NCBI GenBank assembly: GCA_902524385.1
Contig: CABZCZ010000008.1
Span: 1 to 64,000 of the forward strand
From: an uncultured Alphaproteobacteria bacterium
Lineage (GTDB): Bacteria > Pseudomonadota > Alphaproteobacteria > HIMB59 > GCA-002718135
DNA: 64,000 bases
Direction: 5' to 3'
Part shown: positions 55,469 through 60,738 of the stretch, in pieces
Position numbering within the stretch: position 1 is the stretch's first letter
How the letters are laid out: each line of letters starts with the position of its first letter
Program-made: the position numbers and the translations under genes
Notes under the pieces: model-generated
Told to the model about the DNA's origin: nothing
The model's database searches: none
Seen by the model: the letters and a program-made list of their open reading frames with translations, nothing else

Positions 55469-56299
55469 ATGAGATATCTTTATTCAGTGTTTAGTTTTAG
55501 TATAAATAATTTATTAGTTTACAAACTTAATATAATGCAAAAACCCATAGTCATTTATACAGACCATATAATGAACAGAACCCTATGTTATAATTTTGCA
55601 ATAGGTTCTGACTCTCTTTTGTGCCATGTAAAAAATTTTAAGGAATTTGATAAAACTATAGCAACTTATGGAGTACTAAGGGGAACTCTTGAAGTAATTA
55701 ATAAAGTTAAAAATTTTTATTATATGGATCATGGTTATTTTAATCAATCAGAAAGAATATTTGAAAATAAATTAACTAAAGTAAAAAATATGGATGGTTA
55801 CTTTAGAATTGTTTACAATAACTTTATACACAATGGTAAGGGTAATTTCCCAAGTGATAGACTAAGTAAACTAAATTTAAAAATACTGGATCAAAAAAAA
55901 ACAGGTAGTTATATAATCCTTTCTGAACCATCCGAAACTATGAAAAAAATGTATAACGTGCCTAAGTGGACTGAAGAAACAACACGATTAGTTAAAAAAT
56001 ATTCTGATAGAAGAATTGTAGTTCATAATAAATTGTCAAAAAAGCCATTAAATTTATTATTAAAAGATGCGTGGGCATTTGTAAGTTTGCAATCTACAGC
56101 TGGATTTATAGCAATGTATAACGGTGTTCCCTCATACTTTACAGACAAAACCTTAAGTCACATAGGTAAAATACAAAACATAGAAAATCCTATTATAGAC
56201 TATAAAATTTTTAATAATTTAGCATATGGTCAGTGGACCCTTAAAGAGATAGAAACTGGAGAAGCTTGGGAAAATATTTTAAATAATATCTCTAGTTAA
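55469..56299 (+). CDS. Unrecognised protein, possibly glycosyltransferase-like
   Basis: A 276-residue protein I cannot name with certainty. PIVIYTDHIMNRTLCYNFAIGSDSLLCH, FYYMDHGYFNQSE, YIILSEPSETMKKMYNV and LLLKDAWAFVSLQSTAGFIAMYNGVPSYFTDKTLSHIGKI look like the C-terminal donor-binding half of capsule-polysaccharide or glycosyltransferase-B-type proteins (the LQSTAGFIAMYNGVP stretch). No signal peptide. A start at ATG 55535 (MQKPIVIYTD) would remove 22 weakly supported residues. Its setting after a sulfotransferase supports a surface-sugar role, but that is inference. Confidence 0.6.
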   Translation: MRYLYSVFSFSINNLLVYKLNIMQKPIVIYTDHIMNRTLCYNFAIGSDSLLCHVKNFKEFDKTIATYGVLRGTLEVINKVKNFYYMDHGYFNQSERIFENKLTKVKNMDGYFRIVYNNFIHNGKGNFPSDRLSKLNLKILDQKKTGSYIILSEPSETMKKMYNVPKWTEETTRLVKKYSDRRIVVHNKLSKKPLNLLLKDAWAFVSLQSTAGFIAMYNGVPSYFTDKTLSHIGKIQNIENPIIDYKIFNNLAYGQWTLKEIETGEAWENILNNISS

Positions 56300-56306
56300 T
56301 TGCGAT

Positions 56307-56459
56307 CTATTCTTTAAACTTAAAATATTTCTTAATTATTTCTATTGTTTTAATAATTCTATAATTATGTTGATCAAAATTTCTTCTACCTGATGTAATT
56401 TTAGGATAATCTTTGATTAAAATTTTTAAATATTTTGGAATTTTATTTTTTTTATTCAA
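56307..56459 (-). CDS. Possible 50-residue small protein after purH
   Basis: A TTG at 56459-56457 overlaps the purH stop (CATTGA on the minus strand) in the same way as other coupled pairs in this genome and opens a 50-codon frame ending at 56307. It is very Lys/Ile-rich with the stretch SGRRNFDQHNYRIIKTIEII. No family recognised and no ribosome site seen. It may be a real small gene or chance in AT-rich DNA. Confidence 0.35.
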   Translation of the reverse strand: MNKKNKIPKYLKILIKDYPKITSGRRNFDQHNYRIIKTIEIIKKYFKFKE

Positions 56460-57373
56460 TGTTTAAAGAGTCTGTTTTTTGTGAAATACAACGATATTTT
56501 ATTTTTTATTGAAAAAGAAATTACTACATTATCATTTATTGAGCCTGCAGGCTGTGCTACAGCATTGCATCCATTCTTATTGAGTAGATTTATACTGTCT
56601 ACAAAAGGAAAAAAACCGTCTGAAGCACAAACAAAAATACCTTTATTAAAATACTTATTCATATTTTTAATAGCATGATATAATGCATCTACCCTGTTTG
56701 TATGACCATGGCCTAAACCTAAGGTTTGTTTATTTCTAGATAAAACAATAGCGTTTGATTTTAAATGTTTTGCAACTTTCAATGAAAAAATTAAATCATC
56801 AATTGATTTAGCTGAACCCTTTTTATTTGAAACCAAACTCAAAAATTTTCTATTAATTGGAACCAAATCAGCAGTTTGATAAAGATCTCCAAATAAAGTC
56901 GATCTATATTCAAGGGTTATTTTTTTTATATTGGGTATTTTTAGTATTATCAAATTTTTCTTTTTTTCTAAAATATTAAGCGCATCTCGGTCGAAATCTA
57001 AAGCAACAATCATTTCGAAAAAATTTGCGTGAATTCTCATTGCAAGACTAGAAGTTACTTTTCTATTAAGCAAAATTATTCCTCCAAAAGCACTTTTAGG
57101 ATCACTTTCATAGGATTTATCAAAAGCAAGCTCAATATTTTTTGCTGAAGCTACACCACAAGGATTTGTATGTTTTAGAATTATAGAAGTAGGTTCAAGA
57201 AATTCTTTTAAACATTTTAATCCACTATCAAGATCAATTAGATTATTATAACTTATTTGCTTTCCACTAATCTGATAGTTAAAAACTAAATTTTTTTTAT
57301 CACTAATTAAAAAACCTTTTTGATTTGGATTTTCTCCATACCTTAATTTTATTCTACCGTTTTTACTTTTCAT
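56456..57373 (-). CDS. purH: PurH, C-terminal part: AICAR transformylase domain
   Basis: The second half of PurH, which formylates AICAR with 10-formyl-THF. Present and intact: RIKLRYGENPNQKGF, SIILKHTNPCGVASAKN with the catalytic Lys-His, DPKSAFGGIIL, HTNRVDALYHAI, CASDGFFPFVDSI and QPAGSINDNVVI. The 305 residues end normally (LFKH). It opens with its own ATG overlapping the end of the N-terminal part in the +1 frame; removing one A from the AAAA at the joint would give a single continuous PurH. Either a real gene split or a one-base error in an A run. Confidence 0.88.
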   Translation of the reverse strand: MKSKNGRIKLRYGENPNQKGFLISDKKNLVFNYQISGKQISYNNLIDLDSGLKCLKEFLEPTSIILKHTNPCGVASAKNIELAFDKSYESDPKSAFGGIILLNRKVTSSLAMRIHANFFEMIVALDFDRDALNILEKKKNLIILKIPNIKKITLEYRSTLFGDLYQTADLVPINRKFLSLVSNKKGSAKSIDDLIFSLKVAKHLKSNAIVLSRNKQTLGLGHGHTNRVDALYHAIKNMNKYFNKGIFVCASDGFFPFVDSINLLNKNGCNAVAQPAGSINDNVVISFSIKNKISLYFTKNRLFKH

Positions 57374-57962
57374 TTAGCCAATTAGAAATAATTTTATCAT
57401 ATTGTGCTGTTTGTTTAAAAACTTTAAGAGCCATTTTTTTTCTAAAAATAATGTCAGTTTCTCCTTTATTTTTGCTCAAATTTGTTACTAATTTTTTATA
57501 ATCCATAATGTCAATTATTGGCGTTATGTACTTAAAGTTTTTTCCTGCAGCTCTTAATAAACTTGGCCCACCAATATCTATCATCTCAATAATTTGATCA
57601 TTATTATTTTTTTTCAAATATTTCCTAAACGGATATAAGTTAACTACTACAATATCTATTTCAGGCATGTTTAACAATTGAAACTGTTTTTTATGAATTT
57701 TATCATCCCTAATGTAAAGTAATGAACTATATATTAATGGATTCAATGTTTTAACTCTACCTCCAAACATTTCCTTAAAATTTGTGAGTTTTGAAATATC
57801 TTTACATCTGAACCCCAATTCACGAATTTTATTTCCAGTAGATCCAGTAGATATAAAACTGTAATTAAATTTGTTTAAGCTTGAGCAGAGATACCTTAAA
57901 TTTTTTTTCTCAAATACGGATATTAAAGCAAATTTATTTTTTAGATTTTTTCTAAGGACCAT
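57363..57962 (-). CDS. purH: PurH, N-terminal part: IMP cyclohydrolase domain
   Basis: First half of PurH, which closes FAICAR to IMP. The 199 residues include FALISVFEKKNLRYL, SFISTGSTGNKIREL, FGGRVKTLNPLIYSSLLYIRDD, EIDIVVVNLYPF and MIDIGGPSLLRAAGKNFKYIT. Two normally invariant stretches are changed: KTLHP is KTLNP and the following VHGG-type motif is IYSS. Whether it is active is open. It overlaps the heparinase gene by 22 bases and ends in the frame-shifted joint with the next gene. Confidence 0.85.
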   Translation of the reverse strand: MVLRKNLKNKFALISVFEKKNLRYLCSSLNKFNYSFISTGSTGNKIRELGFRCKDISKLTNFKEMFGGRVKTLNPLIYSSLLYIRDDKIHKKQFQLLNMPEIDIVVVNLYPFRKYLKKNNNDQIIEMIDIGGPSLLRAAGKNFKYITPIIDIMDYKKLVTNLSKNKGETDIIFRKKMALKVFKQTAQYDKIISNWLNEK

Positions 57963-59473
57963 TTTTCTGTAATCTTTTTATCTGATAATACACCTTTAAT
58001 CACAATTTGTTTAGTTGGTTTCGTAATATTATTGTCAACTAATATACTATCCTCTATTATAAGTTCTGAATTACTTTTAAATAGCCATATGTTGTTCATT
58101 TTTGTTTTTAAAATTATATTTTTTTTATTATTTGTAAAATTTAAAATCATTTCATTTGCTAGGTGAAATCTAATGTGGTAGATCAACCTATTATTGATAT
58201 CTTTATAGGAAATAAAACTATCCTCACCCATTAATTTATTTTTATTTTTATAAATAATTAATCTTCTTTTGATTATTTTATTAAATTTTTTTAAATATCC
58301 ATTATGTGATCCTTCAAATACCTCTTCTTGTTCATTAGCTTCTTTTCTAAAGGCTACTAATTGGGGAAATTTAATATGCGGGTTGTCTTCCTTTATTTCA
58401 CTAATATTAGTATTTTGTAAAATAATAGTAGAATGAGCGGCGCTATACCTCAAATATTCAGGATTTTTACCAAAACTTTCTGAGGCTCCACAATTTGTAA
58501 GTATTTTCTCTCCAAAACCGCTTAATTCAACTGATAGAGTTCCAGCACTCAAGTTAGAACTAATCATATCCGAGTTGGGCTGTACCACATCAAAAAAAAT
58601 TTTTTTATTTTTATCTGAGTAAAATGCAATTCCATTATTGATGTTTGAAAATTCTCTTTTTTTTAAATAACTCTCTTTGTTTAAAGATTTGTAGATATTA
58701 TTTGTATAGATATTATTAGTACCATTAAATAGAGCTAGAGAACCATCTAAATGAAAATATTCATTTAATATTGATGTCATTTTAAGAATTACCTCATCAA
58801 ACGCATTTGATTTTTTTGATTTAAAAAAAAGTAAAATATTTTTTATTTCGACAAGATTATTTACAAACTTGGAATGCTCCAAGAAATTATAACTTTTATG
58901 CATGCCAATTTTATCAATCTGTTTATCAACAACAAACTTAATATAATCGATTTCTGTTTTATTGACTTTTTTTAGGAGAGAGCAAGACAACAAGTATGCT
59001 ATTAAATCAAATGAAGTAAATTCTGTTATTTTTTTCGATTTGAAATCAAATAAAATTCTTTGAATATGAAAATAGATTATAAAATCTAATTTTCTCTTAT
59101 CATACTCTTTTGATGGGGAATTTATATATTCATAGTTATACAAAAGATTTATCAGTCTTTTAGATGATAAATCTTCTACCCAAGGAAAGCCTAACTTATT
59201 TTTGTATAATTTATGCCACTTAAAGATTACTTTTTTTGATAAATTTATACCCATTTTACCACCAAGTTTATTTGAGAAATTTAAAAAATCAAAACTATGA
59301 ATATTTTTATTTTTGTAAGTATAAAAATTTTTTTTAAAAATAAATGATTTAATTTTATTGTGATTTGTAAAATCTATTTTCCTAAAGTTTAAATCTAAAT
59401 AAGATAAATTTTTCTTTGAATTAAACTTAGAAGTTATAAATATAAATATTATTTTCTTTATTATTAAAATCAT
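57941..59473 (-). CDS. Heparinase II/III-family protein
   Basis: A 510-residue protein that, by position (rsmB-heparinase-purH) and by motifs, belongs to the heparinase II/III-like family of alphaproteobacteria. The C-terminal beta part has GSLALFNGTNNIY, NNGIAFYSDKNKKIFFDVVQPN, LSVELSGFGEKILTNCGASE, YLRYSAAHSTIILQNTNISEI and FEGSHNGYLKKFNKIIKRRLIIY. It may act on an acidic polysaccharide in the envelope; substrate unknown. More Lys/Asn-rich and diverged than most relatives. Overlaps rsmB by ATGA. Confidence 0.8.
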   Translation of the reverse strand: MILIIKKIIFIFITSKFNSKKNLSYLDLNFRKIDFTNHNKIKSFIFKKNFYTYKNKNIHSFDFLNFSNKLGGKMGINLSKKVIFKWHKLYKNKLGFPWVEDLSSKRLINLLYNYEYINSPSKEYDKRKLDFIIYFHIQRILFDFKSKKITEFTSFDLIAYLLSCSLLKKVNKTEIDYIKFVVDKQIDKIGMHKSYNFLEHSKFVNNLVEIKNILLFFKSKKSNAFDEVILKMTSILNEYFHLDGSLALFNGTNNIYTNNIYKSLNKESYLKKREFSNINNGIAFYSDKNKKIFFDVVQPNSDMISSNLSAGTLSVELSGFGEKILTNCGASESFGKNPEYLRYSAAHSTIILQNTNISEIKEDNPHIKFPQLVAFRKEANEQEEVFEGSHNGYLKKFNKIIKRRLIIYKNKNKLMGEDSFISYKDINNRLIYHIRFHLANEMILNFTNNKKNIILKTKMNNIWLFKSNSELIIEDSILVDNNITKPTKQIVIKGVLSDKKITEKWSLEKI

Positions 59474-60738
59474 TTTAATTTTTTTAGAAAAGCTGCAAAG
59501 TATCCATCAATATTATAGTCAAAAATTACATCAGGGACAGTTATCATAAAATTATTTTTAATAAATTTTGAATAATTTTTTTTATTTTCTTTTAATTTGA
59601 AATTTGAGAGAATAAAATTATTATTTAGTTTAAGGAATTTTTCAACTTGATTAACGGTTTCAATCTGTAAAAAAGAACAAGTCATATAAATTATAAATCC
59701 GTTTGTATTCAATAAGAATGATGCTTTTTCTAACATATTTTCTTGTAAAGAAAGCAGTTTGTCAAAATCAGGACCTTTGTTTTTAAAAAATATTTCTGGA
59801 TTTCTCCTTATTGTTCCCACTGCAGAACAAGGAGAATCAATTATAACTATGTCATACAGTCTTTTATTGTCTAATTGAATAAAATCTTCATTTAAAATTT
59901 TGGCGCTTAATTTGAGTCTCTTTAAATTAGTTTTAAGAGTTTGAATTCTATTTTTGTTTTTATCATTCAAGACAACATTAAGTTTTTTGGATAAAATTTG
60001 AAAAGATTTTCCACCTGGTGCAGCACAGGCATCAAGAATTACCTTTTTTTTATTCATTTCTTTAAAATTATACAATGGAAGAAAGGAACTAAAATCTTGT
60101 ACCCACCAATCACCTTTAACAAAAGAATTTCTATTCTGAAAATTTTTTTCATCCAATAAAAAACCAGATAATAACGATGTTTTAAATAACTTAGCATCAA
60201 ATTTCTTTAACCTTTCTTTATCTTTAAAAACAATGTGAATGTTTGGTTCCTTATGAAAATTTTCTAAAAATTGTTCTTTTTCATTATCAGTCAAATAAGT
60301 AGTCTTTTTCTGAAACCATAAAGGTAAATCACTAAAATTAATTTTGATTTGTTTCAAATCATTTTTACTTCTAGCTATTTTTTTTAAAGTTGAATTTATA
60401 AGACCAGGATATAATTTTAGTTTTTTTGCTATTTCAACCGAACAATTTATGACTGCATATTCCTTAAAGTTTAAATATACAATTTGGGTTATTGCACTAA
60501 TTAATAAGATTTTCTCCTGATCTCTTAATTTTTTTTTTATAAATTTGTCTATTATTTTTAAACAATGTAAATGTAACCTCATTGAGTTTAAAGTTACGTT
60601 GTGTAAAAAAGCTACATCTTCTTTTTTTTGTTTATTAATTTGTTTTTTAATTAAAGAATTATTTAGTGTTTTATTAAATTTATAAATTGAAAATAATATA
60701 TTATGAATTTCAAATCTTATTTTTACGCCTTTGATCAT
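59470..60738 (-). CDS. rsmB: 16S rRNA (cytosine967-C5)-methyltransferase RsmB
   Basis: 422 residues with an N-terminal NusB-like helical domain (about 1-135) and a C-terminal SAM domain: VILDACAAPGGKSFQIL (motif I), IVIIDSPCSAVGTIRRNPEIFF with the PC motif, and GFIIYMTCSFLQIETVNQVEKFL with the catalytic TCS Cys. First gene of the rsmB-heparinase-purH series; divergent from tdk. Confidence 0.92.
   Translation of the reverse strand: MIKGVKIRFEIHNILFSIYKFNKTLNNSLIKKQINKQKKEDVAFLHNVTLNSMRLHLHCLKIIDKFIKKKLRDQEKILLISAITQIVYLNFKEYAVINCSVEIAKKLKLYPGLINSTLKKIARSKNDLKQIKINFSDLPLWFQKKTTYLTDNEKEQFLENFHKEPNIHIVFKDKERLKKFDAKLFKTSLLSGFLLDEKNFQNRNSFVKGDWWVQDFSSFLPLYNFKEMNKKKVILDACAAPGGKSFQILSKKLNVVLNDKNKNRIQTLKTNLKRLKLSAKILNEDFIQLDNKRLYDIVIIDSPCSAVGTIRRNPEIFFKNKGPDFDKLLSLQENMLEKASFLLNTNGFIIYMTCSFLQIETVNQVEKFLKLNNNFILSNFKLKENKKNYSKFIKNNFMITVPDVIFDYNIDGYFAAFLKKLK

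Follow-up and report, generated by a model that had tools for sequence, protein, structure and literature searches.

Evidence for an inherited fission of purH at its domain linker in a marine clade of the order HIMB59

PurH (ATIC), in which an IMP cyclohydrolase (IMPCH) domain is followed by an AICAR transformylase (AICARFT) domain, is almost uniformly bifunctional outside archaea (PMC3261824, PMC6797443). In the window, i.e., the whole 64,000-nucleotide stretch of alphaproteobacterial DNA analyzed here, the two domains lie in different reading frames that meet at a short overlap. An initial annotation of this DNA proposed three explanations for the joint: an indel error, slippage on a run of A, or a true fission of the gene. 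Which of these accounts for the locus, and do related organisms share it? Among the papers searched, no published case of PurH fission in bacteria was found, and two papers on HIMB59, including PMC10734472, make no mention of purH in their main text.

Two half-genes and their joint

Both genes are located on the minus strand. The upstream gene, purH-N (57363-57962), has an ATG start and a TAA stop and is predicted to encode a stand-alone IMP cyclohydrolase of 199 amino acids (the PurH2/PurJ half). The downstream gene, purH-C (56456-57373), also starts with ATG and is predicted to encode a stand-alone AICAR transformylase of 305 amino acids (the PurH1 half). These assignments are based on Pfam domains, motifs and fold. 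The purH-N protein matches MGS (PF02142) and AICARFT_IMPCHas (PF01808, positions 1-59), and the purH-C protein matches PF01808 at positions 77-310; thus, the MGS-like IMPCH and AICARFT domains of the PurH/ATIC family are both present above the Pfam cut-offs.

Direct reading of the minus strand places the two frames at an offset of +1, with an overlap of 11 nt, ATGAAAAGTAA (57363-57373), at exactly the coordinates that the initial annotation gave. The overlap holds the start codon of purH-C (57373-57371) and the stop codon of purH-N (57365-57363). At the joint, the upstream frame reads ...TGG CTA AAT GAA AAG TAA and the +1 frame reads TAA ATG AAA AGT AAA, so that the purH-N product ends in WLNEK and the purH-C product begins with MKSKNGRIKLRYGENP. 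The TAA that adjoins the purH-C ATG on its 5' side (57374-57376, minus strand) is in the purH-C frame, and a ribosome could therefore change frames only within the 11-nt overlap. Loss of one A makes PurH continuous again, as had been claimed.

The frames break within the interdomain linker, a stretch of some 15 codons bounded by the final cyclohydrolase helix (model residues 171-195) and by the transformylase motif RYGENP. The position of the break in a linker that occupies about 3% of the gene, together with its recurrence in 51 of the 79 genomes of the genus that have the gene (see below), is more than chance.

Each half retrieves ATIC both by sequence (phmmer against solved structures) and by fold (Foldseek). 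AlphaFold models of the two halves, whose confidence is moderate (mean pLDDT 66-67), were used solely to demonstrate the match of each half to an ATIC domain. The purH-N model aligned to the N domain of human ATIC with a TM score of 0.80 and to the unfused protein ForH (PDB 6NKO) with TM scores of 0.72-0.79, normalized by query length, at 25-27% identity, and the purH-C fold resembles the C domain of Mycobacterium tuberculosis PurH (3ZZM).

Split and intact PurH in relatives

In a first search of the family, covering 60 relatives, some genomes had one full-length match and others had two partial ones. A census of the genus was then based on frame length, with split loci defined by a C-terminal frame of 303-330 amino acids and intact loci by a single frame of 500-523 amino acids. 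The gene was found in 79 of 102 genomes, being split in 51, intact in 27 and truncated in one. All proteins with at least 65% identity to that of the window were split, and every complete one with 63% identity or less was intact.

The same joint, which the initial annotation had suggested looking for in relatives, is indeed present there. The distance from the conserved Trp codon to the Tyr codon of RYGENP was 3n in 30 of 30 intact loci and 3n+1 in 41 of 41 split loci (exactly 40 nt in 39 of them); these locus counts include several genomes represented twice, and 30 of the split loci are distinct in sequence. None of the 41 therefore has both PurH domains in a single open reading frame, all having two frames with the +1 offset. 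Most of the named split genomes are single-cell assemblies. They include AG-891-K05 (locus L041), a 98.8% complete genome serving as reference for GCA002718135-1.A, a genomospecies with a wide distribution (PMC10734472). Judged by this locus, the host of the window most likely belongs to family GCA-002718135 of the order HIMB59 (AEGEAN-169), whose members are abundant in the ocean.

The joint was read base by base in the 30 distinct split loci, each of which has a purH-N stop and a purH-C start, as expected of unfused PurH2 and PurH1. Of these loci, 29 start purH-C with ATG and one, L017, with GTG; the T and G of the start codon and the A that follows are invariant. Intact relatives differ at the corresponding residues (W-F-N-K, W-F-R-Q, W-F-S-K, W-L-S-N, W-F-N-I and others), and the constraint thus arrived together with the split. 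Judged by this conservation, the purH-C start codon is real. The purH-N stop is TAA or TAG and shifts among the split loci, giving overlaps of 8, 11 or 17 nt; the overlap is within 8-17 nt in 29 of the 30 loci, and the conserved GTG of L017 would likewise give 17 nt. Only L017 among the split loci lacks ATG at the conserved site, and it has an in-frame ATG 27 nt upstream; for these reasons its true purH-C start is uncertain.

In a PurH tree that combined concatenated halves with intact proteins, the 30 split sequences formed one clade (support 100/100) that lay within the intact diversity of the genus, and the sister family, also intact, fell outside. The heparinase-like gene located upstream, which is not itself split, recovered the same clade (100/99). 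The simplest history suggested by these trees would be a single fission followed by vertical descent, with no reversal seen.

Motifs of both activities are kept in all 30 distinct split loci: GR[VI]KT, [VI]NLYPF and IDIGGP..KN for IMPCH, and RYGENP, KHTNPCG, TNRxDA and SDGFFPF for AICARFT. The longer form RYGENPNQ and the AICARFT motif RLFKH are likewise conserved in split purH-C. The catalytic residues of PurH/ATIC are accordingly present for both IMPCH (human Lys66, Tyr104, Asp125 and Lys137) and AICARFT (RYG, KH, NRxDA and FFPF); the list of IMPCH and AICAR-contact residues was taken from PMC3261824, and motifs were matched to human residues by eye. In close pairs, dN/dS was mostly 0.1-0.25 for each half, resembling intact PurH, with the closest pairs having too few changes to judge. 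Both halves are under purifying selection.

We also searched more widely for independent splits, checking every listed genome with two hits outside the genus. With these checked, and with part of the single-hit genomes examined for length, no other PurH split within a contig was detected among 303 alphaproteobacterial genomes with a match, or among 389 pseudomonadotan genomes with a match, the two surveys overlapping in some genomes. These results and the literature (PMC6797443, PMC3261824) agree with the earlier remark that such a fission would be unusual for bacteria. Several two-hit genomes were rejected as independent splits: G322 and G344 have two full PurH copies each; in G158, G229 and G286 the PF01808 pieces are on different contigs; and in G524 and G545 the second hit is a divergent homologue on another contig. 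As a separate observation, this divergent homologue, which occurs beside a normal PurH in two genomes of the pseudomonadotan family f167 (G524:C51:15399-16364 and G545:C1:122795-123751), covers nearly the whole PF01808 model, with E-values of about 1e-20 to 1e-22.

Origin and expression of the split genes

Of the three explanations proposed initially, the strongly supported one is true fission into a gene for the cyclohydrolase and one for the transformylase, in view of the single clade, the conserved start, the selection on both halves and the retained motifs. We consider it highly probable that the locus arose by an inherited, in-place fission at the domain linker, resulting in a separate IMP cyclohydrolase and AICAR transformylase, whose catalysis is predicted.

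The strongest competing explanation is that full-length PurH, alone or beside the halves, results from a programmed frameshift or from transcriptional slippage where the two genes meet. The frames do overlap, a +1 shift would join purH-N to purH-C, the DNA is AT-rich, and many split members have runs of 4-6 A. However, programmed shifts call for a conserved site, and transcriptional slippage for A runs longer than seven (A>7; PMC3711429), and the runs found here are shorter. The stretch open in both frames is only 8 nt in L039, ATGAATAA, with a longest A run of 2, and in L049 it has no A run longer than 2. No conserved slippery site was found in the junction sequences, which vary, and no recoding-type motif was seen in them by eye. 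Because the A run is not conserved and the stop position depends on the lineage (8, 11 or 17 nt, TAA versus TAG), slippage on the A run, as initially suggested, is very unlikely. In addition, the invariant ATG/GTG start is not something that frameshifting would require.

It is even less probable that the frameshift is inactivating and that purH is decaying, with one or both halves being relics. An interrupted frame in a normally single gene is what decay would produce, but no complete locus has a shortened half, the catalytic motifs are kept, dN/dS stays far below 1 for purH-N and purH-C alike, and additional stops are absent from the clade, in which the C halves are 65-87% identical to that of the window. 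Finally, a sequencing or assembly indel error is a natural thought where a short A run differs by one base and the case was first met in a single assembly. It is ruled out by the recurrence of the joint in dozens of species that were sequenced independently: the +1 offset is shared by 41 of 41 split loci, which come from many different single cells and species, including the reference genome AG-891-K05, and differ in local sequence. The offset is absent from intact relatives, many of which are likewise single-cell assemblies.

How might the fission have occurred? Among the 30 intact loci listed, 16 already have an out-of-frame +1 ATG in the linker, which suggests a single net +1 change as the route. 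In the ancestor of one clade in a marine genus of the HIMB59 order (AEGEAN-169), a net +1 frame change in the PurH linker, i.e., one base inserted or two lost, would have brought the cyclohydrolase frame to a stop a few codons downstream. The same change would have put a pre-existing out-of-frame ATG, contained in Asn/Asp-Glu codons (AAT GAA), into the transformylase frame, and a single mutation could in this way have produced two complete single-function genes. We infer that each gene is translated into its own product and that each half is catalytically active. Both products are presumably made from one mRNA, with purH-C translated by reinitiation or by direct initiation at the overlapping ATG.

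The neighborhood is consistent with a common transcript. Four genes form a run on the minus strand: rsmB (16S rRNA m5C methyltransferase; 59470-60738), which is the first gene, a heparinase II/III-like gene (57941-59473) common to split and intact relatives, purH-N and purH-C. They overlap by 4, 22 and 11 nt, respectively, and cotranscription is therefore likely. A 276-amino acid ORF on the plus strand (55469-56299), convergent with purH-C, had no Pfam match at E 0.001.

Coupled translation of purH-N and purH-C is plausible, and on balance we lean toward it. Short overlaps favor termination-reinitiation and are enriched among subunits of complexes (PMC10666635), and in the split loci the downstream start overlaps the upstream stop, an arrangement conserved in relatives. 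Yet the predictive band for termination-reinitiation is -8 to +10 nt (PMC10666635), and most split overlaps, at 11 or 17 nt, exceed its -8 nt limit; coupling is for this reason considered plausible only. In a simple motif search, no Shine-Dalgarno-like motif was found before purH-C; very few of the 66 longest ORFs in the window have one, so its absence there says nothing. Translation in this AT-rich genome, which has 28% GC, seems to start largely independently of such motifs. A further proposal, that the halves pair through the old interface as an obligate heteromer, with the overlap selected to set subunit ratio or assembly, would make this a two-subunit PurH; we regard it as unlikely.

Returning to fission at the linker, where an AT-rich linker contains an ATG out of frame, one indel may be enough to split a gene with neither function lost. 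A fission of single origin with many intact sister species would offer a direct test of the role of fusion in flux, ratio and stability. For annotation pipelines, the practical consequence is that purH should not be called frameshifted in this widespread marine clade.

Comparison with known systems

The split genes share with bifunctional PurH/ATIC the two domains, their order and the catalytic motifs, and have the same upstream neighbor as intact relatives. They differ in that PurH/ATIC is encoded by one gene, whereas here two overlapping genes in different frames are separated by a break in the linker. ForH resembles purH-N in its single-domain fold and size, but is a lone homologue; we take it to belong to formycin biosynthesis.

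The purH-N/purH-C pair can also be compared with coupled overlapping genes (PMC6728339, PMC10666635), which are likewise co-directed, have the downstream start inside the upstream end and often encode subunits of one complex. The usual overlap in such pairs is 1 or 4 nt, in contrast to 8-17 nt here.

Separate PurH domains are functional elsewhere. The domains of the human, chicken and S. lugdunensis enzymes function separately (PMC3261824, PMC6797443), and the human enzyme showed no channelling (PMC6797443). The unfused PurH2 of Archaeoglobus fulgidus, AF1811, is active and allows growth of an E. coli auxotroph (PMC6797443, PMC3261824). Like AF1811, purH-N would be a PurH2-type cyclohydrolase without a transformylase. 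Unlike archaeal PurH2 and PurH1, the halves described here are bacterial, lie side by side with an overlap and appear to derive from in-place fission of a fused gene. Unfused PurH halves are thus already known in archaea, and the new element would be the in-place split, with overlap, in bacteria.
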